Assembly: GCA_014904845.1 (NCBI GenBank)
Contig: MU119319.1
Span: forward strand, 62,001 to 126,000
Reading direction: 5' to 3'
DNA length: 64,000 bases
Origin: Acephala macrosclerotiorum
Lineage: Eukaryota > Ascomycota > Leotiomycetes > Helotiales > Mollisiaceae
Shown piece after piece: positions 8,030 through 55,678 of the stretch; position 1 is the first letter of the stretch; every line of letters begins with the position of its first letter. The notes beneath the pieces are model-generated. The model was not told the origin of the DNA and searched no databases. It saw only the letters and a list, made by a program, of their open reading frames with translations. The position numbers and the translations under genes are program-made.

Positions 8030-8350
8030 AAAGTAAAATTTAATTAATTAAAAGATTAAGATTTTAATAAAGTCATATAAAAGCGTAGCGCGTATTATTC
8101 GTCGATATAAAAAAAATATTTAAATTTAATAAATAAAAATTATATATTTTATTATTATTTATATATTTATTATTAATTTTAAATTTTTTTTTTAAAATAT
8201 TTTATAATTAATATTTAATTTTTATTATATATATTTATTTTAATTAATATTAATTTAATAAATTTTAATTTATATATATTCGATTTTTTATATAATTTTT
8301 TTTTTTAAAAAAAAATATTAATTATCGAAAAACGAAATATCGTTAAAAAA
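8030..8350. repeat. AT-only island (RIP-type)
   Basis: About 320 bp made almost entirely of A and T, with sharp edges against normal-composition DNA. Such blocks are the usual end state of RIP acting on a transposon in filamentous ascomycetes. No element can be identified. A TAGCGCGTATTAT string at its left end (about 8086-8098) recurs at the right side of the 36.4-kb island. Confidence 0.75.
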
Positions 8351-36375: not shown

Positions 36376-36640
36376 ACGTAATAAAAAAAAGTAAAAATGC
36401 AATCGATATATTATAATTATAATTATTAAAAATAAAATTAAATATTAATAATATTTAATTTATTAGTATTATTAATATTAAACTAAAAACTAAAATATAT
36501 AATAATTTTAAATTTAATATATATGAATTAATTTTAATATAATTTAATATTATATATAATTATTATTTTTATTTGATTTTATATTTTTTTTAAATTATAA
36601 TATTAATATTTTAAAATAAAATACGTATTACGTATTTTTT
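36376..36640. repeat. AT-only island (RIP-type)
   Basis: About 265 bp of nearly pure A/T directly truncating the SDR relic on its left. To its right TTAGCGCGTATTAT (about 36673-36686) matches the string next to the 8.0-kb island. Confidence 0.75.
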
Positions 36641-39898: not shown

Positions 39899-41355
39899 AT
39901 GCCTTTCAAAATCCTCATCGTATAAACTGGTATTGCTGGCCTTGGAGTAGTAATAGCACTCACAAGTAAATGCCATAATGTTACCGTCGTAAAAGCCACC
40001 TCCCAGCTTCAACCTGTGGAGGTATCATAGTTATGCAAGCAAATGCCAACCGTGTTTTAGACAGCTAGGGCGTATGAATCATTATTAAAAATCCGTGTCG
40101 CTATCCCGTTGGGCTAAGTACAAAGAGATATAAGGATGGGGGGTTCCTTATCAAAAAGCCTGCGGAGATACATGAGAAGGAATATGGGTACCCTTATGTT
40201 GTATTCATTAATCTAAGATGAGATGTCGCTAATACGCAAGGTTTGCAGGCTCTGACCCTTCCATAGGGCTGATTTGCAGCAAATTCTTGATGAGGCTGCT
40301 ATGAAACAAGGGATAAGCTTCAGGCTTGGTGGTCCGGTAGTTGCTCTTGATGGGGATGATGACACGTCGGCTGTTGTAATCAAAGGCGGGGACAGAATAG
40401 AAGCTGATATGATGGTGGAGTAGACGGTAAGTCAGAGATAAATCCGCCGCGAGCAACCCAAATGCGGTTTTGGTGCCTGTCATATGCGTTTTCTTGGATG
40501 TGTGTTTAGATCTCGGCCGAACACTGAAGAACTAGAACTAAGAGAGATCCGAGATCCATTCTAGGAATCAAATCCACCGTCCGAAAGAGCATCATTCCAG
40601 ATTCGACATGTGTTCGTGATAGCGGCTGGATATAACTCGACTAAATCTCCCCGAGGCCATCGTGAGATCGAATCCCGAACTTCCATATTTATGCATCAAA
40701 TTAGTCTGTGGTATGGCCCTTTTACTCTTTTAGGGCTTGATTGCTGCCACATGAGAGACGAGACTTCGGTGGAGGGAGTGAGTCGGAAACAAAACATTGA
40801 GCAGTTCAAAAGGTATTCTAAAGACTTTGCTCCCGTCATTCAGAAGCTACTATCGTACGTGAAAGAAGCACACGTTTGGAGGTTGATAGAAACCATGCCA
40901 CCATCTTGGGTAAGTAAAAGTGGGAGAGCAGTTTTAATCGGAGATACAGCCCATGCTGCTTTACCATGGGTTAGACAAGTAAGGATTCTTCCTATTTAAC
41001 GATTTTTGTATAAAACGCTCACGAGTTTAGGCAGGCGGCATGGCACTTGGGGATGCAGCAACTCTGGCAGAATGTTTAGAGCGAGTTGAGATATCCGATA
41101 TTCCAGAAGCACCCAAAGCATTCCAAGAGATTCGAGAGCCGCGATGTAAGCTAGTGCAATAATGGGCTGCAATGAAAAGTAAATGAGCAACTATTCCAAA
41201 CGGACTTAAGCAAGAGCAAATCGATAAGAACTTGAAGTTGTTTAATGCTTGGATAAAGGCTAAGCTTTGGGATAGAATTCATGTCGATAAACTCTTTAAA
41301 TTTAAATTTGAAATTACAAATTGAATAAGCGGGCATAATACCATGGATTTTGTAA
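39899..41355 (+). pseudogene. FAD-dependent monooxygenase (salicylate-hydroxylase type), RIP-degraded
   Basis: Successive pieces of an aromatic-ring FAD monooxygenase are in the right order. MPFKILIV-stop-TGIAGLGVVIAL is the Rossmann start, with TAA in place of the first Gly. Next are YKDGGFLIKKPAEIH, then ILDEAAMKQGISFRLGGPVV with VVIKGGDRIEADM and a stop (TAG near 40422), LIETMPPSWVSKSGRAVLIG followed by the GD-motif DTAHAALP, AGGMALGDAATLAECLERVE and IREPRCKLVQ before a TAA. NLKLFNAWIKAKLWDRIHVD ends it. Several stops are explained by G-to-A or C-to-T change. It lies between two AT islands, consistent with RIP leaking from neighbouring repeats. Confidence 0.75.
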
Positions 41356-41830
41356 GTTTAAGTATAATTAATGTTTTATAGTTTATATATAATAAATATT
41401 ACGAGTATGAAATTTTTAGTTTAAATTTCTTTTTATAATAAAAACTTTTTTTTAATTATTATTTAATATAAATAATTAATAATAATATTTTTAAACGCTA
41501 ATAAATTATTTATTTATTACGTATTTTTTTTATTTTTTTTAAATAATTAAAATTGTTTTATAAGTTTACATTTTTATTATTACAATATAATAATATTTTA
41601 TATATTTAAATATATATTATTTAATATATAATTTTTTTTTTTAATTTATTAATTTATTATTATATAATTATAAAAAAATATTAACGATAGCAAATAATCA
41701 ATTTAAAAAGTATAACCATATATAAGTATCAAATCACGTTTAAAAAATTATTAAATCGTTTAATTAAATAAAAAAAGCAAACCAGAAAAAACAACGAGAA
41801 AATTATATTCGATGTATAAAGTTTTCTTTA
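41356..41830. repeat. AT-only island (RIP-type)
   Basis: About 475 bp nearly all A/T, starting exactly where the monooxygenase relic ends. The largest of the four islands. Confidence 0.75.
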
Positions 41831-44695: not shown

Positions 44696-45571
44696 CTAGT
44701 CAAATTCGTCAAGATTCCCAGGTGTTTTGGTGTCCTCAGCCAATGTCAATCGGGTTTCAAGCGCTCGAGAAAGCTCATCTGAAATATAATTTCCAGGCCT
44801 GGTAGTCGTTGCAGAAATTTCCACTTGATGCCGCGCTTTGTGAGAAGCCAGATACCGGCGCTCATCAGAGCCCATACCAAAGACAGGGCGGTGAGGCGGG
44901 ATGGGTGCTCTTTGATACTGGAACAAATTCGTGGCATTTGTCCTTCTCTCCCATTTGTACAATGTCGGCTGGGAGAATACAATGTTTTCTTCCTCTGAAA
45001 GTGCGTCCACAAATTCGATGCCCCTATCTTTATTGTAACCTTCGTTAAGTCGGATATTGACCTTCTTGCTAGACAGCAAAGTGACTACCAAAAACTCCTG
45101 GAGTCCAGTCAATGATTTGAACAAAGGGATCAGATAGTCCTCAATGTTTCCAAGACCGGTCGGATATCCATACAGAAGAGTATGTTGGAAAGCGAAGTGT
45201 CGAATTTGGGATCGTTCCCAACTGTTGAGGACACGGCAAAAATATGGGATGAAAGGCCTCGCGCCCTCAGGAAGGAAAATGGTATCGAGCTGGAAGTTGA
45301 ACCTGATGCGAGCCGTGGCTATAAATCCGAAGCTGAGTGGATAGTGCTCAACGAGAGCATTGCGTGACTCTTTGCAGACGAGTAATGTGGCAGGTAGAGT
45401 GGAATTTGAGTAGAAGTTGTAGGATCTCGATCCATGCTCGCCAACGTCTCTCAGGTCGAGCAGGATCTCGACAATTCGCGGTCGTAGAGTGAAATGCCAT
45501 ATGAGGAATCGGACATCATATGGAAGATCCGTGAAGAAGTGAAAGGCTTGAATTGCTAATGGCCTGTCCAT
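44696..45571 (-). CDS. 2EXR-domain protein 1
   Basis: 291 residues, single exon, ATG at 45571. The 2EXR signature opens the protein (FHFFTDLPYDVRFLIWHFTL then RPRIVEILL), followed by LLVCKESRNALVEHYPLSFG and the RFNFQLDTIFLPEG block that recurs in its neighbours. 2EXR proteins are a large fungus-specific family related to F-box-like modules, with no established biochemical role. It is followed upstream by a second minus-strand and a third plus-strand member. No damage seen. Confidence 0.85.
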   Translation of the reverse strand: MDRPLAIQAFHFFTDLPYDVRFLIWHFTLRPRIVEILLDLRDVGEHGSRSYNFYSNSTLPATLLVCKESRNALVEHYPLSFGFIATARIRFNFQLDTIFLPEGARPFIPYFCRVLNSWERSQIRHFAFQHTLLYGYPTGLGNIEDYLIPLFKSLTGLQEFLVVTLLSSKKVNIRLNEGYNKDRGIEFVDALSEEENIVFSQPTLYKWERRTNATNLFQYQRAPIPPHRPVFGMGSDERRYLASHKARHQVEISATTTRPGNYISDELSRALETRLTLAEDTKTPGNLDEFD

Positions 45572-46101
45572 GGTATGGAAAATAAGCTGGATTTGATAGA
45601 AATACAGAAGCTTGGAGGTGTAAGATGTAATTGGGATCGAAGATACGAGGTAGCTGCCTGCTGTTCATGTGGCATGTTGTACAACGTTGAGACTGTCCCT
45701 GGTAGGTGAGAAGTGGCCCGAATAGTGAAACCTTCATCTGCACAATCCCGGTCAGAGTTTGACTTGCACCACCACGTCGTTGAAATTGATGCAAGGAAAT
45801 ATCGATTTTGTAATAGACTAAAGAGCTGAGCAGCACCGAATTGTAATTCTCTGGTGATGGGAATTTGAGACTTGAACATCGAACCAACTTGTTAGGTCGT
45901 CGTATTCCCCATACTCCTTCAGTTAAAAGTTAGATTATTTAGCTAATTCTTGCTCTTTTGCTAATTAACGTAGACACTTGAATTGATCTCCTCTCGAAAT
46001 ATCCCACCATTTTCTAGAAACTCCTCGCCAGCCATATTGCAGTATAGATGGTCGTTGGGTTTTCGAGATGTATGCCTGCCCAGCCACCATGCCCCAAGCG
46101 T
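45572..46101. other. intergenic between 2EXR genes
   Basis: Promoter of 2EXR 1 and 3' flank of 2EXR 2. Minus-strand ORFs here (45516-45887) lack domain content. Confidence 0.4.
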
Positions 46102-47019
46102 CTAATCGTCAAACCCTTCAAATTCATCTTCGTCGTCTGGGTCTGCATCCTCCATGTCCATGTCCACAAGATCTGGAATCATATCAGAATCAATATCGGA
46201 ATCCGAATCCATGGGGAAAGCGCCGTCAGGCCCGAAAAGTGGAATTCTTAGTCCAGGCAAGAAAGGATACATATCGCCATCGGACTCATGTTGATCTTCG
46301 TCCGTAGGGTAATCATCGTCAATCATCTGGGACCACATGGGACACCGCCTCCAACCATAGACGGGCCGACAAGGTCCATCCCATAGTATAGCCTCCTTCG
46401 AGAATGCTTTCATTGTTGGTAGATCCTCAATGCGAGAAGCAATGGGGTTCAGCTCCTTTGGCAGAGTGTCGTAAAGCTCTATGGGATGTTCGTCTCCACA
46501 CTCGAGGGTGGATGACGCGAGGGACTCTATGTCGAAGACGACCTGAACTTCCTTCAATGATTTGAGCGAGTCTAACGCGCGCCTCAATCCTTCTGCCAGT
46601 TTGCCGTCTTCAAGATTGTATCCCACCACGTAGTACTGCTCAAGAGCCAGGTGTTTCAGCCCGTTTATCTCGGCGTCCTTGAAAGTGCTGAAGAGGTGTG
46701 GTAGATTCTCCTCGAAGTCATTGTCGATGAATAACGTGTCAATCGCGAAGTTGAATCGTACTTTGGCTGGGAAGAACACTGATCCGAAACAAAGGGGATA
46801 TGAATCGATGACTGTTTTCCGGGACTCTCGACAGACTTCCAAGACTTTGGGATTCATCGCGCGGGAGGAGAAGCCCTCTGGGAAGTCCTCGTCGTACTCA
46901 AGCTCCACGGTCCGTGGCTGACACATAGCCTCCCATATCAGGCATCGGAGTTCAAGAGGGAGCCTTGGGAAGCACGTAAATGTCTGGAGGGACGCAGGCT
47001 GAGATGTTGGAAGCGGCAT
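46102..47019 (-). CDS. 2EXR-domain protein 2 with acidic tail
   Basis: 305 residues from ATG 47019, chosen because the frame upstream to 47262 has no ATG and contains a GTAATA...AG interval that looks like a leader intron. 2EXR core: FTCFPRLPLELRCLIWEAMC then QPRTVELEYDEDF, VLEVCRESRKTVIDSYPLCF and VRFNFAIDTLFIDNDF. The last 50 residues are strikingly acidic (about half Asp/Glu, with DSDSDIDSDMIPD), absent from 2EXR 1. Paralogous to 2EXR 1 by the shared CRES/CKES-R and RFNF-DT blocks. Function unknown. Confidence 0.85.
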   Translation of the reverse strand: MPLPTSQPASLQTFTCFPRLPLELRCLIWEAMCQPRTVELEYDEDFPEGFSSRAMNPKVLEVCRESRKTVIDSYPLCFGSVFFPAKVRFNFAIDTLFIDNDFEENLPHLFSTFKDAEINGLKHLALEQYYVVGYNLEDGKLAEGLRRALDSLKSLKEVQVVFDIESLASSTLECGDEHPIELYDTLPKELNPIASRIEDLPTMKAFSKEAILWDGPCRPVYGWRRCPMWSQMIDDDYPTDEDQHESDGDMYPFLPGLRIPLFGPDGAFPMDSDSDIDSDMIPDLVDMDMEDADPDDEDEFEGFDD

Positions 47020-47456
47020 GCTGACAGATTTTGGGCGGGGGCGATTGTGCGATTTTGCACTCTTTGCGAATGTCGTCAAGGTTCTCCTTTCTGAGTGCTT
47101 TAATTGAAAGCGTAAGCACACAGGCAGAAGAAGGAGAGGACGTGTATTACCTGACGCAATTAAGTTGTGAGATGGAATTGAGTTTGCAACAATACTGAGC
47201 TTCTGTGACGCGCTAAGGATTGATTCGTGTGAAAAGCTTAAGCCCAACTTTCTGCCAAGCAACTAGGCTCAATGCGGTGACCGCATATACACCGCATTGC
47301 TATATCTCTCACAATCCTCCAATTCCTCCTCCGATTTCCTCATTGATACAGCTTACGAATCGCTGCAAGGCAACCAACGAAGATTTATGAATCATTGACA
47401 TATAGAGCTTACAAAATCTCCATTCCTGCCCTACTATATTGACAATCGAAGCAGAC
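47020..47456. promoter_or_regulatory. divergent region between 2EXR genes 2 and 3
   Basis: 437 bp between oppositely oriented starts (47019 minus, 47457 plus), so the two genes may share promoter sequence. A short repeat GCGGTGaCCGCATATACACCGCATTGC lies at about 47273-47300, with GCGGT/ACCGC inverted pairs. Confidence 0.45.
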
Positions 47457-48182
47457 ATGGCTCTAGAATCGTTCACCCTCTTCCCCGAACTACCTACCGA
47501 ATTACGCCTCAAGATATGGAAATTGGCAATCCCAGGCCCTCGGATCCTCAGCGTCGGTCATAGAATGCAGTACGGAGAAGGATATGGAAGAATAATACCA
47601 ACAGCTATGGAGTGGAGAACCTCTGATCCGGTTCCAACCTTGCTCCACGTCTGCCACGATTCTCGGACGGAAGCTCTCAAAGTCTATCAGCCATCTTTTG
47701 CGGCATTCAGAACACCTCGACAAGAAGGAAAGAACTACATCGACTTTAGCAGAGACATTCTTTACTTTGGCGGATCTGGTAGAGCCTTCACGGACATGAA
47801 GGCTCTGATAAATTCAACGTCCAACAACCCCAGCAACTATTTGCTCGACATGTTCCTAGGCGCGGACTACGGGACGAAAGACGCAGAACATATCAAATAT
47901 ATGATTGTTGATATCGATGAGGAGCGATACGGACGGAGGTCGTTCATATGGGACGAGATCAGGCTATTTCCAAAGCTCCAGGACTTGATTGTCGTAGTTT
48001 GGGAGGAGGATTCCGACGCCGAGCAGCTTATGGCTTTATACCGCATTTCTCTTCGCGAGGTTGCTAGAAAGCATCCTGAATGGGCGATACCAGAGATCAG
48101 GTTCTTTTCTGCCATCACAAAGAGACTGTGGGGAGTGATGGATTCGTCGACACGATTAGTAAATGAGGCCACGGCAGCATAG
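47457..48182 (+). CDS. 2EXR-domain protein 3
   Basis: 241 residues from ATG 47457 (the frame upstream has no ATG). Core: FTLFPELPTELRLKIWKLAI with PGPRILSVGH, LLHVCHDSRTEALKVYQPSF and YIDFSRDILYFGGSGRAF. It is more distant from 2EXR 1 and 2 than these are from each other, so the trio is either an old tandem expansion or independent neighbours. Single exon, intact. Confidence 0.85.
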   Translation: MALESFTLFPELPTELRLKIWKLAIPGPRILSVGHRMQYGEGYGRIIPTAMEWRTSDPVPTLLHVCHDSRTEALKVYQPSFAAFRTPRQEGKNYIDFSRDILYFGGSGRAFTDMKALINSTSNNPSNYLLDMFLGADYGTKDAEHIKYMIVDIDEERYGRRSFIWDEIRLFPKLQDLIVVVWEEDSDAEQLMALYRISLREVARKHPEWAIPEIRFFSAITKRLWGVMDSSTRLVNEATAA

Positions 48183-49348: not shown

Positions 49349-51883
49349 TCACATAAAGAAGCAAAATACCCCCGCCAGTCCCAACACACCCATGAGCGCC
49401 CACCAAACCTCGAAGCGACCTGCATCTGCTTTCACGCAATACCTATCAAATGATACGTCATTCGTGCAGTCGTTACGCGAGCTCAGGCTACGATTCTGCC
49501 GTCTACGGAGCTCATCTTCCTTTCTTCCTGCCTCCACAACTGGCTTCCCCTCCTTCACTTCTCCAGAATCGAAGTTTGACACGTCGCCACTCACATCCTC
49601 GCTCCCGCAACGATGTCCAGAGATCCAGATCATTCCCAACAAGCTACTTACAGATTTCCGAACCAGGTCGAAACTCGGTGCAGTGAGGCTCTCTGTGAAC
49701 TCTCTCGGCGTCGGGATAACAGCAGCCATAGCGCCAGGAAGCGCAGCAATGAGAAGAGTCGTGAGAAGAGTCGGGAGACGAAATATTCGCGGGCTTGAAA
49801 TGCACGAAGATGCTGACATGGATGGGTTATCACAGGTGCCTTTACACGCGCTACTCGAAAATTGAGATGGTGGGGTTCGTTTAGTCACATCTTCATCTGA
49901 AGTACTGGTCCCTGTTTTCAACAAGGAAGCAATGTCTCCAGGTATCGAACCTACTGCGTTGAAGAGTAGAATTGGTGAGCTGAAGGTCCGTGGCACCAAC
50001 AGTGAGGAAGCAGTGCTCTTGTCACTGAAGCAAGCGGTTGCGTCGTTATATCCATTGCTCGCACAGACCATTTCTCTTGTATTGAGTGTCTTGGTGGGCG
50101 AGGCTAACGCATCATTATCTGGAATCGACTCGAGAACTTCCGAGTTTGTTGAGCTTTCGAAGCTTGAGACAGTCGCTGCCAAAACACCAGGAAGCTGACC
50201 GATGAGTTTGAAGGCCAAGGTAGGCAAAGTGAAGATACGAGGAAGAGTCAGAGATGTGGCGGCGCTGCACTGCTCGCCGCCGATGTCAGTTGGGTCCCCG
50301 CCACAGTCTCTTCTCTGCTTTTTGCCTTCACTCTTCGTTTCGCCTCTTATCCTGAGCTCGTTCTGGACGAGTTCGACTGCTGAAATTACCGGACTCGCAG
50401 CCGTCTTTGCAATTTCCGTAATGAAAGTGATCAGAATCTTGGGAACCCGAAAAATACTTGGTGGGCCGACATTCGAGGCAGAGTTAGTAGCAGGAGTGGC
50501 ACCCCCAGTCGGTTCAGCCTCGGAATAATCAACAAATGCGTCTGTATCACAAGGAAAATCTTGCCAGTATTTCCACCCACTGGCAGAGACACAATCATAC
50601 CGAACCGCTGTCGCGGTGGGGCTGCTTTTCCAACAAGGATAAAACATCAAGAAAGGGATGAGACACCAACCCCTTTTCGTCTTGGTAGGCACTTCTCTAT
50701 CGTTGATCGTTGGGGTGGGAGATAGCCTGTTGGCCTGGTGTATTCGATTTTCAGAGTCCTGGATTTCAGGGTTGTGTTGACTGAGCTTCGAGACGGAGAG
50801 ATCTGATGAGTTCGAACCTTGTTCTTCAAGAGGAGTTACACGTTTGTCAAGTGATCGTTTAGCAAGGCTGTCCGCTTTCGAGGCCAGGAGTCCAAATGGC
50901 TCCACAAGACTGCTAATCATGTTCGTGGGCACCAACACAACCCATTTGCAGAAGGCGTATGGCATGAAGACGCCAGATAGATGAGGATCTTCGGCATTCC
51001 AGCTACAAGGGTATGTCCAGATGAGCGGAAGCCCGCACCATATCTGCTCGTGTTGGCTCTGAATTACAGCTTGGGATTTTGTTGTCTCTCGAGCTGTGAC
51101 CTTCAAAGTAATATTGGCGCTCTTGGGGAAAGTTGGAATTGCAGCAGCCATAGTTCTCGACACAGCCAGCAAGGCATGCACGATGGCAACTGGAAAGCTG
51201 AACAGTCTTGGCACTTTCAGACCAGAAGCAGCTCCATGGTATCCAGGGTGTTCGTCGCCGTAATTCTGTTGGGCGGTAAACAGTTTACCGGCCTCAGTCC
51301 GGATCTGATTGGAGTCGTTGATATCCGGATCATTCCAGCGACATGGCAAGGATTGACTGTCATCAAGCCACTTACAATGTGGCGAAACGACCTCTCTTTC
51401 GATATTTTGCATGTGCTCTTGTCTCGTAACTTTCCCTTCCACGAATGTTTGGAACACTCTTGCCACAACTTCAGGTGCCATCCCCAAAATATCAATGATT
51501 GCAGCGGCTTCAGGGAAAGAGGCCATCATCCTCCTGCGAAGTGAATTCGATTCTGGGCTTATCTTAGACGATCGACGAGATGGACGAAATTCCTTCACTT
51601 GGCCCAGTTGAGCTGCATCCAAGTCGTTCAAACCCTTGAAGTTCGTCCAAGCATCAACCGGCGTAGCTCTCCATGAGCAAGGAAACTCCTGATTCTGTTT
51701 GAGCCAGGCACAAACTTGATACTCTTGCCTCTTCCCAACTGAAACCATTTCTGTTAGTGCCCTAGGCACTGATCTTAAGAGAATTGAGATGGCGGAAAGT
51801 TTGAAATTCGGTACTGAGCGAGTGCTTGCCAACGTGACTAGAGTGAGGAGATAGAGAACATTGAAGACGCGGATGCCCCTCAT
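49349..51883 (-). CDS. secreted modular precursor: repeated signal-peptide-like segments alternating with Kex2 sites and two-Cys peptides
   Basis: One open frame of 844 residues without intron. ATG 51883 (MRGIRVFNVLYLLTLVTLAS) starts a clear signal peptide; the frame runs 52 codons further up, but that part looks like leader. Hydrophobic blocks resembling this signal recur, each introduced by P-[RS]-x-F-x-x-P at residues about 225, 475, 548, 631 and 698 (for example PRIFRLPTLLTTLLIAALPG). Between them lie dibasic sites (KR 51-52, RRR 116-118, KR 342-343 and 347-348, KR 403-404, KKQRR 521-525, KR 668-669, RRR 793-795) and short cysteine pairs: C58-C69, C170-C181, C283-C293, C407-C417, C431-C445, C527-C539, C607-C618, C806-C816, plus C680/C684/C694. 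Five pairs end in [FLY]-P-C. The C-terminus (WWALMGVLGLAGVFCFFM) is a probable membrane anchor. The architecture resembles Kex2-processed repeat precursors, but repeated signal-like segments are not usual for those. The product is unknown. Confidence 0.85.
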   Translation of the reverse strand: MRGIRVFNVLYLLTLVTLASTRSVPNFKLSAISILLRSVPRALTEMVSVGKRQEYQVCAWLKQNQEFPCSWRATPVDAWTNFKGLNDLDAAQLGQVKEFRPSRRSSKISPESNSLRRRMMASFPEAAAIIDILGMAPEVVARVFQTFVEGKVTRQEHMQNIEREVVSPHCKWLDDSQSLPCRWNDPDINDSNQIRTEAGKLFTAQQNYGDEHPGYHGAASGLKVPRLFSFPVAIVHALLAVSRTMAAAIPTFPKSANITLKVTARETTKSQAVIQSQHEQIWCGLPLIWTYPCSWNAEDPHLSGVFMPYAFCKWVVLVPTNMISSLVEPFGLLASKADSLAKRSLDKRVTPLEEQGSNSSDLSVSKLSQHNPEIQDSENRIHQANRLSPTPTINDREVPTKTKRGWCLIPFLMFYPCWKSSPTATAVRYDCVSASGWKYWQDFPCDTDAFVDYSEAEPTGGATPATNSASNVGPPSIFRVPKILITFITEIAKTAASPVISAVELVQNELRIRGETKSEGKKQRRDCGGDPTDIGGEQCSAATSLTLPRIFTLPTLAFKLIGQLPGVLAATVSSFESSTNSEVLESIPDNDALASPTKTLNTREMVCASNGYNDATACFSDKSTASSLLVPRTFSSPILLFNAVGSIPGDIASLLKTGTSTSDEDVTKRTPPSQFSSSACKGTCDNPSMSASSCISSPRIFRLPTLLTTLLIAALPGAMAAVIPTPREFTESLTAPSFDLVRKSVSSLLGMIWISGHRCGSEDVSGDVSNFDSGEVKEGKPVVEAGRKEDELRRRQNRSLSSRNDCTNDVSFDRYCVKADAGRFEVWWALMGVLGLAGVFCFFM

Positions 51884-52644
51884 AGTTGAGGTTGGTGATG
51901 ACGGTACTTGATATGGTGAGCGAGGTTCTATGGAGTTGCGGTGCTGTCGTTGCGTCAATGACCAGCGTACTTGGTTGGTGTTTGAGAATCGTTGTAAAGG
52001 GTTAGAGGTGTTAAAGCAGTCGTTGAAGTCGATGAACATAGGATGCTAGTATTGAGTTGATGAGGGAGAAGCTTGCTGATTGTACGATCTAAAAGTTCGA
52101 GGTTTGAGGCAAATATATGCAGAAGGTGGTGTTGTGATTCGAAAGCACCTCTTCCATGATTCATGAATTTCCTGTGACTCGAATGAAAGTTGCACTTCTG
52201 TTTCAAAAGAGCAACAAGTGGCTGTGAAAGAAAATAGTTTGCAGCAATTTTTATTCTAATAGAAACGCTCTTAAAGTATAGGCAACGGGTGTTGTTGGTA
52301 GATCTCACAAGAAGCAGGACGAAGCGATTATCATACAGCTGAAATTATTCAAGTAAAAGGACACTTAAAGCTCTTCTGGTTTCATGAACCCCATGTGAGT
52401 CACCCACCAGGGGCTGTCGCTCTGCCCAACTGAGAGTTGCAGGCGCGCATCTACCAGACTTCTGGGCAGTCCGACTGAATGTCTGAGAATCACAGGAGTA
52501 AGATTACCATGAAAAGTAGCAACAGCCAGAGAACAGAAATTTCTTAACGATACCTGGTACGCCGGACCCCTCAATTCTACAATTCTCATTTCCTCATGAT
52601 CTCTCATCTAAGCTTCGCCTAGGTCTATCAACTCCCGACAGCTC
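51884..52644. promoter_or_regulatory. upstream region of the modular precursor
   Basis: 761 bp between the precursor start and the FMO stop (both minus). It includes 52 in-frame codons before the chosen ATG, probably leader. No recognised element. Confidence 0.4.
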
Positions 52645-55127
52645 TTAAACCATTGTTTGTGATCTCATATACAGATTCTCAATCGTATAATCCTTCTTCG
52701 GCCCCTTGACATTATATTTCGACGTCCACTTCTCAATCGTCGTGCCTTTGAAGAAGAATTCGTACTCCACGTTGTAGAGGTCCTCAATGCCTGTCTCACT
52801 GTCAGCCTTTCCTCCTTCCCTTGTCCTTTCTCTTCGATCCTACATTACTACGACTAATAAGAAGAAGAAGGTAGGGAGAACTCACATAAATGCGAACTCT
52901 TCGCCCTCCAAGGCTCATCCAAACTCTTCCTTCTTCCTTCCACGAGAAACTCAAGCTTGTGAAAGAAATAATCACTCATCTTCCCATCCCCCTTCGTGAA
53001 CCAAACATCCATACTATCCCCCTTCTCAGTATAATGATAAACGTAACTCCTCCTCGCCGTCATCGTGCCTCCCCAACTCGGTCTAAAGTCTCCCTCTTCG
53101 AAATACAGGTATTCCATATCTGCATTCTCATCTGTAGAAGAGCGAGGAATGAATGAGGCAGTGCCAGTGAGGGTCCCGGAGGGGAAGGTAGCGAGTTGAG
53201 ATCTGATGGTTCGGGAGAGGGACCAGGTTCCTTGGAGGGCGCGGAAGGTTGCACGGGCGACGAATTTCCCCTTATTCGAATCTGCGAATATTTGGTCGAT
53301 GATTGATAACGATGATTTGGCTTCCTGGAGGGAGGTGGGCGAGGCGGTGGATGGGAGGTAGCGGGACGGGATGACGATGCCGCTCCGCCCAGATGAATTC
53401 TCGGGTTCCGTTCGCTTAATGTCAAGAATCTCGGCGAGCGACTCCATAAGATAAGCGTAATCACCCATCGGGAATTGTGCTCTTCTCAGATTATTCCTCA
53501 GCTTCATCATGCTTTCCATAGTCATATCTTCTTCCAACGCTTTTTGAGCTTTCGCGTCCTCGCTCCAGAGTGCGGCAAGATAACGAGCTTGCATCTCCAT
53601 CACGCCCCAATATGGGCTGCGGTAGAATCCTACGAAGCCAAGGGACGGGATTGATCTATTGACTATAGTGTGAACGTTCAACGCGAGCGGGAAGCTGTCG
53701 TCTTTCGGGTCGAATTGAAGTTGTTGCAGGAGCTCTGAGGGTAAAAAGCTGAAGGATGGAGAGGCGTCAAATCCTGTTGCGGAGATGATGGCTGCGATGT
53801 CTGAAATTTTCTCCATCTTTCCAGATGAGTCCACGACCTGGATATTTCGTTAGTGAAGATCTCTAAGTCGAGAATGGAGGCTGAGAGAGAAATGTCCCAG
53901 AAACCATGGGACAATGGAAGCCCTGCCAGCGCCCAAGTCCGCAATCTGCTGAAACTCACCTCCAAGCTTTCTTCTCGAACACCACTCATCCGACCCTGCA
54001 TGACCTTGATCATCCCACTCCTCACAAATTCGGTGAAGTAATCACTACAAGCTAACATCGGGGGCTCGCTTCTCACCACATCGCCCTTCATCCCCAAAAC
54101 CTGAATCCTAAGTTCAGACTGATCAGTCCCAATATACGTATTCATGAATCCATGAACCATTTTTGCACCCTCGACTGAGATGTGTCCAGAAGTATTCTGG
54201 ATCGGTCCTGGAGGTCTCCAGCCCAGGTTGTAGTTCACTAGATCCAAGGGTAGGAACTCTGGCGAGGCGTTGGTTCGCTGTTTCTTATCAGCCCTCCACC
54301 ATCATAATCCCTGCTTATCTCCGGAAAAGGGGAAATAGACTCACCTTAACACTCTCCCCACTATCACCAACAACCTCCCCCTCCGGATCTCTAGGAAAGA
54401 AAAGCGGCATAACCCAAACCGGTTTCTGTACCACATTTACCACCCTATATCCTCCCCACTCCCTGTCCCCACCGCTAGGGGAATTCACCAAACTACTTAA
54501 CTGGAAAGCAACGGCGGCGGCCGTCTCAACACCACTCATCTGCCCACCCACAACCACTATATATCTTCCCTTAACACTCTTCAGATCCCTCTTTCCACCA
54601 TCTGTCAAGAGTTCCTTGACGTTTCTGATCTTGGAACTATGCCACACTGGCACCTTCGCATTTTCCAGCATGGAAGGAAGTTTTGGTTTCCCAAAGAAGC
54701 CCGTAGCGACGATCAAATGATCAAATTCTGTCATCTCCTCCACTTTTCCCTCCTCCTTCAATGACACATTCCATTTCTCGCCTTCCAGCTTGGTACTTAG
54801 CACTTTGGTGTTGAGCCGTATTTCGTAGCCTGGGTAAGTCGACATGTACCGTTGGAGATACCCACCAACCTCCCACGCCTTCGGAAAACTCGCGCTGTCT
54901 TCCGGCCAAGCAAGATCACTGAATGAGACTGTGTGTCGAGATTGATTCGTACACATATCAGGATTTACTAGCCTGTCATCTTTCTTGTCCACAGGCCACA
55001 AGCCGCCTATGCGATGAGATTTTTCGAAGATGGTCACGTGGAATGCACCTTTCGGCGCATCGTGGATGAGTGTTTTGGCTGCTACGAGACCTGATGGCCC
55101 GGCACCTAATACCTTAATCAGTGACAT
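52645..55127 (-). CDS. flavin-containing monooxygenase fused to a C-terminal DUF6314 domain
   Basis: Four exons (55127-54345, 54277-53960, 53837-52886, 52790-52645) give 732 residues in one frame. N-terminal FAD site: KVLGAGPSGLVAAKTLI (about 5-20), then FEKSHRIGGLW. NADPH site: YIVVVGGQMSGVETAAAVAF (about 195). Residues about 540-732 form a DUF6314-like lipocalin-type domain: FRALQGTWSLSRTIRS, GTASFIPRS, ARRSYVYHYTEKGD, DYFFHKLEFL, HLCIEDLYNVEY and VKGPKKDYTIENLY. The last exon, supported by the family's HLC...D.Y pattern, was hidden behind a 95-nt intron. Such fusions occur in ascomycetes. Substrate unknown. Intact. Confidence 0.9.
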
Positions 55128-55678
55128 ATTGGGGCTGAATTGGAAGAGTGTGAGTACCGATGATTGCGACTGTTTTTGCCATTCTTGTGAGTTGTTGACT
55201 GAGATGGCGGGTGAGCATGAAAAGTCGCTGAAGATGAGAGAATGCTCAAGAAATGTGAGAAATTGAGGGACTCATCAAAGATGAAGAGATGCAAAGAAAC
55301 AAGGTCATCCGAAGAACAATCTTTATGACTGAGATGTACGTATTTATCAGCGAGCTCAAGACGAAGACCGAGATTTAGGTCTGACATGCTGAGCGAGTGA
55401 GCGACGTGAGGTTGAAACTAAGGGGCGTGTCTCTAGGAATGGCAAGCCAGGCTTCAATCGAAGCGCACCTCTTTTCACGTGTTCTCTACATTAAGCCTAC
55501 CGTAACCTTTGAAAGTTCTGTAGAAGAGGTGGACAATGAGTTATACCGATATCAAAAGCTTTTATTAGATACTTTAGTAGTGATGGTGTTAGTGACAAAG
55601 ATGTTCTTTGATTTTCCCCTCCTTTTCAGCTTTCATACTCCTATCAGTGCATGATACACAGCCTTTCCTCCTCCCACC
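55128..55678. other. intergenic, nothing recognised
   Basis: Promoter of the FMO and 3' flank of the SnoaL-like gene. No feature seen. Confidence 0.4.

Follow-up and report, generated by a model that had tools for sequence, protein, structure and literature searches.

A gene for a candidate polyprotein precursor built of diverged Cys-loop cassettes in Acephala macrosclerotiorum

The window, as the DNA analysed here will be called, is a 64,000-nucleotide stretch of Acephala macrosclerotiorum contig MU119319.1. Its minus strand, on which all features of the gene described below lie, carries an open reading frame at 49349..51883 that runs from an ATG at 51883 to a stop codon at 49351-49349 and encodes 844 amino acids. 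The frame is uninterrupted over all 844 codons and coding-like throughout, in keeping with the initial annotation, which had described about 2.5 kb of coding sequence without introns. When codon usage learned from the PEX1 and MCM7 frames was applied to six frames in four stretches, the precursor frame outscored the other five in all four, by small margins (over residues 474-724 it scored 0.044, and one antisense frame was slightly positive too, at 0.022). A further in-frame ATG lies upstream at 52039 and, if used, would lengthen the protein by 52 residues; the start in the related proteins is the inner Met (51883), not this ATG. At the thresholds used, Pfam and PDB comparisons returned no known domain in the protein.

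Nine of ten frames scanned against Pfam between 37.6 and 63.6 kb had a match: 2EXR (three frames), FMO-like, DUF6314, PEX1, MCM7, short-chain dehydrogenase and amidase. The three 2EXR (PF20150) frames adjoin one another at 44696-48182, two on the minus strand and one on the plus strand. The FMO-like and DUF6314 frames share a strand at 52854-55271 and are probably one intron-bearing gene, although joining them is a guess. The window, otherwise mostly 43-51% GC, is interrupted by three AT-rich islands (41300-41830, 36400-36570 and 8100-8310) that contain degenerate short repeats and resemble mutated, RIP-like relics of repeats; at 40200-41300, beside an AT-rich island, apparent pieces of a decayed FAD-type monooxygenase can be picked out by eye. 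No tRNA was found in the window.

Protein searches returned three relatives, a lower bound, since scoring in the two long searches was confined to the candidates with the most shared words (7992 and 7990). P0003 (PAC_00914, 1088 aa) is from Phialocephala subalpina, a root endophyte according to the title of PMC5148876. P0002 is a second long relative (1042 aa), and P0004 is a cut-off N-terminal piece of 158 aa on a 1053-base contig. Over aligned columns the window protein is 66.4% identical to P0002 and 56.6% to P0003, and the latter two are 51.8% identical to each other. All three long proteins open with what appears to be a signal peptide (in the window protein approximately residues 1-21, 51821..51883); the first 26 residues are identical at 18 of 26 positions, and this conservation, together with hydropathy, fits the N-terminal signal proposed earlier.

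Downstream of the signal, the most regular feature is a series of cysteine pairs. Under a rule allowing 8-14 residues between the two cysteines there are nine pairs in the window protein (all with 9-13 between), ten in P0002 (one with 8) and 11 in P0003, so that the "at least eight" counted previously was sound. Ten of the 21 neighbouring-Cys spacings in the window protein are 9-13, where random placement would give 2.1 (P = 5e-5); the ten are the nine pairs plus the gap between pairs 4 and 5. The first five of these cores are strongly conserved, with 71 of 88 residues identical in the three proteins: pair 1 (C58-C69, 51677..51712) keeps 14 of 18 core residues, pair 2 (C170-C181, 51341..51376) 12 of 18, pair 3 (C283-C293, 51005..51037) 17 of 18, pair 4 (C407-C417, 50633..50665) 14 of 15 and pair 5 (C431-C445, 50549..50593) 14 of 19. 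The remainder are less constant. Both cysteines of pair 6 (C527-C539, 50267..50305) are kept in P0003 and fall in a gap in P0002; pair 7 (C607-C618, 50030..50065) is identical at 4 of 16 positions in the three, with a close match in P0003; cluster 8 (C680, C684 and C694, 49802..49846) is identical at 3 of 19, its cysteines not being retained in P0003; and pair 9 (C806-C816, 49436..49468) keeps its cysteines in P0002 and meets a gap in P0003. The variability of cores 7 and 8, and the lack of a counterpart for 6 and 9 in one relative each, speak against equal selection on all cores. Taken together, cores are the best conserved part of the protein after the signal (81 of 127 residues identical in three), followed by linkers (147 of 343) and hydrophobic blocks (65 of 196, the lowest), and divergence is fast outside cores 1-5.

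The hydrophobic blocks follow a P-R-x-F-x-x-P type of motif. The window protein has five, at residues 224-248 (51140..51214), 474-498 (50390..50464; here residue 3 is S), 547-571 (50171..50245), 630-654 (49922..49996) and 697-721 (49721..49795). Other hydrophobic stretches lie at residues 31, 126 and 315 and at the C-terminus. Directly after the signal, residues 27-50 (51734..51805) appear to be a block remnant: the segment aligns with the block preceding the QEY-C core of P0002, and its best matrix score against shuffles has P = 0.010. Across the proteins, 16 to 20 blocks were gathered by eye and with an F-x-x-[PS] pattern, so the column counts lean toward the motif; with that selection, P at position 2, F at position 5 and P at position 8 are each present in 19 of 20 blocks, and A at position 23 in 16. 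A test on orthologous columns, which uses the five window blocks and avoids motif selection, gives the same three residues as identical in 11 of 14 cases in the three proteins, against 26 of 104 for other block positions (P = 1.5e-4). The rest of the block changes in sequence but keeps its hydrophobic character: in the five blocks, 35 of 50 variable hydrophobic columns hold on to hydrophobic residues, compared with 5 of 23 in five linker stretches. Position 13, in mid-block, is often polar (N in nine of 20 blocks, T in four, H in two, K in two). That P, F and P stay fixed suggests that the block is recognised by its sequence, perhaps by a factor for processing or folding, and is not simply a membrane anchor.

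Blocks and cores belong to a larger repeating unit. In Smith-Waterman comparisons of 100-residue fragments with 20 locally shuffled versions (the fragments overlap, so pairs are not independent), the window protein had 4 of 91 pairs that scored above the best shuffle, P0002 had 19 of 153 and P0003 had 65 of 171. All three long proteins thus have internal repeats beyond shuffles, the outcome of a self-alignment that the initial annotation had put forward as a check. The repeats are clearest in P0003, where C-x-W-L-x-x-x-Q-x-x-P-C-x-W is followed by a segment that often contains L-x-x-A-Q, A-G-S or A-A-S and then by a block, with KR in several copies. The full cassette opens with an x-P-R-x-F-x-x-P block that continues for about 15 mostly hydrophobic residues to near a small-x-Ala; a linker that varies then leads to the Cys pair, in most cases spaced by 9-13 residues. 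Twelve module copies taken from the three proteins share 28-38% identity with the first row of their alignment, and the cores do differ from one another, as the initial annotation held. The DNA, for which a self dot-plot was also suggested there, retains little repetition: a longest direct repeat of 32 nt at 75% and a 12-bp tandem repeat in block 5 (49750-49778, 2.4 copies, 94% matches). The tandem perhaps marks a recent in-frame lengthening of that block; with so little repetition left at the DNA level, the duplications themselves look old and the cassette copies diverged.

The arrays also differ in length among the three long proteins. After the signal and ahead of the QEY-C core, P0002 and P0003 carry modules that are absent from the window protein; P0003 has further modules beyond those common to P0002, and a different C-terminal end from the other two; and the core-6 module is missing from P0002. 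Two such cases in P0002 and one in P0003 have blocks that neighbour each other with no intervening Cys pair, a point against the precursor account given below. A simple reading of the array differences, tentative as to direction, is that the lineage of the window protein lost modules in frame, possibly via recombination between blocks.

The likeliest account of these features, which we hold tentatively and at a little short of an even chance, is that the gene encodes a secreted polyprotein precursor processed by Kex2, and that one cassette (P-x-x-F-x-x-P block, linker and Cys-loop core) was repeatedly duplicated within it before the copies diverged. Judged from its sequence, a single signal peptide would direct the precursor into the secretory pathway. 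Kexin-type proteases could then cut at dibasic sites ahead of some cores and release Cys-loop peptides with a trailing linker and block, the P, F and P of which may be read by a processing or folding factor. Cassettes would be gained and lost in frame, probably through recombination between blocks. The product would be a mixture of different small disulfide-loop peptides acting outside the cell, perhaps (and this is speculative) in interaction with a host or a competitor.

The window protein has 14 listed dibasic positions, counting overlaps, and three KR sites are conserved in both P0002 and P0003: residues 51-52 (51728..51733), 342-343 (50855..50860) and 403-404 (50672..50677), the last directly before core 4. 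RR 524-525 (50309..50314) is KR in P0003 and falls in a gap in P0002, and KR 668-669 (49877..49882) is KR in P0002 and falls in a gap in P0003. Counting dibasics of every kind, 4 of the 9 Cys pairs of the window protein have one in the 15 residues before them (P = 0.08), as do 5 of the 10 in P0002 (P = 0.006) and 6 of the 11 in P0003 (P = 0.001); for KR alone the counts were 2 of 9 (P = 0.15), 2 of 10 (P = 0.12) and 4 of 11 (P = 0.01). Within 15 residues downstream there were none for the 30 pairs of the three proteins, against about five expected. These P values are nominal, and the three proteins are homologous and therefore mutually non-independent. The placement fits cutting in front of the cores and leaves clean C-terminal ends undefined. 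Because the enrichment goes beyond chance only in the relatives, processing is something we infer, and the initial annotation's proposal of Kex2 sites stands as to the dibasic positions and the three conserved KR but is not borne out by significant upstream enrichment in the window protein.

The main and serious rival, on balance unlikely and behind the cassette-built precursor, is an intact repeat surface protein, adhesin-like or wall-protein-like and held by a GPI or transmembrane anchor, in which the Cys loops are structural and the dibasics incidental. It draws on a hydrophobic C-terminal tail resembling a GPI signal or a transmembrane segment (residues 823-844, 49352..49417), which has the highest hydropathy in the protein (2.07; block 5 is next at 2.05), ends at the last residue and is kept in P0002. 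The P0003 model has no such tail, and so the earlier suggestion of a membrane-tethered parent gains a hydrophobic end that could tether in two proteins and loses it in the third. The limit of conserved KR sites to three also suits an uncut protein, as does in silico cleavage at KR and RR, which gives ten uneven pieces of 5 to 225 residues from the window protein. Against it stand the position of the dibasics, before Cys pairs and never shortly after them, and the lack of any known Pfam or PDB domain at the thresholds used.

A polytopic membrane protein, with the blocks as transmembrane helices, is improbable. Each long protein does show nine or ten separate peaks of hydropathy higher than 1.0, the signal counted, but 20 of these 29 peaks reach 1.6 or lower, the blocks contain Pro and often Asn, Lys or Arg, and such a topology would divide the loops and the conserved KR sites between the two faces of the membrane.

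More improbable still is the origin originally proposed, by which several complete small-secreted-peptide genes were fused and their internal signal peptides are cut by signal peptidase. The blocks have features that invite it: a small-x-Ala exit in 16 of 20 (confirming the small-x-small exits of the GAMAAV and GVLAAT type noted earlier) and Arg at position 3 in 13 of 20. A gapless block matrix nonetheless scored the four signals at -12.7 to -21.4, with shuffle P values of 0.017, 0.086, 0.106 and 0.299; the one at a nominal 0.017, a point in the proposal's favour, is the signal of P0003. By comparison, 15 of 16 left-out blocks scored above all 1000 shuffles (one was low, at -16.0). The signal peptide lacks P-R-x-F-x-x-P, and all four signals score far under the left-out blocks. 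Polar residues also interrupt the blocks. Hydrophobic or neutral residues run on for at most 4-7 positions in 18 of 20 blocks and for 10-11 in the remaining two, compared with 10-13 in the four signals, although a strict residue set (AILMFVWC) gave no separation (3-6 in blocks, 2-5 in signals). Of the claim that five later blocks copy the signal, then, the five hydrophobic blocks are real, and by the gapless matrix they are not recognisable as signal copies. Nor did the search for single-module relatives that the initial annotation had advised turn up a donor. Searches of the organism's own genome matched the precursor ORF alone, with limited sensitivity (in one, the gene's own blocks came up with E values of just 1.55 and 4.64, and a solitary diverged module might thus go unseen), and a single-module protein search, which scored 751 candidates and likewise gives a lower bound on relatives, returned the cut-off N-terminus P0004 only. 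Without a single-module gene among the matches, the repeats are better explained by internal duplication than by a fusion of several genes, a preference limited by the low power of the searches to pick up one diverged module.

Least probable is a decaying orphan gene without function: few relatives were found, modules are missing and divergence outside cores 1-5 is fast, but the long frames are open (844, 1042 and 1088 aa) and cores are kept at up to 14 of 15 and 17 of 18 residues.

The cassette-built precursor can be set beside several known systems. The amphipathic-peptide polyprotein of Ustilago maydis is Rep1, or repellent. Compared by description only, it shares the derivation of several peptides from one precursor, and it is called 'structurally similar yet unrelated' to Ece1p (PMC12153327). 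Ece1p, the source of candidalysin in Candida albicans, is described as having one signal peptide and mostly different KR-separated peptides, one of them amphipathic; its eight peptides include candidalysin, which is unrepeated, and three others that are repeated (PMC12153327, PMC7329392). The initial annotation's statement that known precursors have near-identical cores was therefore too narrow. By the same descriptions Ece1p is set apart by its 271 aa and its seven KR with a cut after each, whereas the proteins described here run to 844-1088 aa and have Cys loops and irregularly placed dibasics.

The Kex2-processed repeat proteins (KEPs), which include ustiloxin-type RiPP precursors, have a signal peptide, tandem repeats and dibasics (PMC7329392, PMC6339444), to which the putative signal, diverged repeats and dibasics of the present protein may correspond. 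One survey defines them by a signal peptide, at least three tandem repeats of 8-100 aa between Kex2 sites and a position score over 0.6, and several of the KEP types it lists include Phialocephala (PMC7329392); the other uses cutting at KR/RR into at least four fragments, at least three of them similar, in a protein that is non-membrane by TMHMM (PMC6339444). The repeats here differ in being strongly diverged, and their 28-38% identity to the first row of the module alignment speaks against the repeat criterion. The finding of no UstYa/DUF3328 gene near the precursor speaks against a ustiloxin-type RiPP cluster: UstYa was not found in the ten neighbouring frames scanned, and none of the 59 exon-level UstYa (PF11807) matches in the 69.66 Mb genome is on this contig. 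UstYa-type neighbours are reported for only 22% of KEPs (PMC7329392). Several of the 59 matches sit close together on contig C331 and point to RiPP-type clusters in other parts of the genome. Ascomycete alpha-type pheromone precursors are Kex2-processed and contain a short two-Cys peptide, in some cases with a C-terminal P-C-W, but their loops are about six residues in the two examples given (PMC6339444), against mostly 9-13 in the window protein; they also repeat one near-identical peptide, a pattern that the differing cores here do not follow. By analogy, the precursor is best read as near Ece1 and the KEPs in its logic.

A more specific proposal, doubtful on present evidence, is that the family represents a lineage-restricted precursor type in which cores come with their own P-x-x-F-x-x-P block, recognised by a dedicated maturation factor; a single gene would then supply about nine different Cys-loop peptides in a mixture altered by in-frame gain and loss of cassettes. 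As described, the two KEP surveys seek similar or near-identical repeats between Kex2 sites, and so diverged a precursor could escape them (PMC7329392, PMC6339444). If processing does take place, relatives of Phialocephala subalpina would make a mixture of peptides from one fast-changing gene, and the P-x-x-F-x-x-P element would offer a handle for finding further examples.
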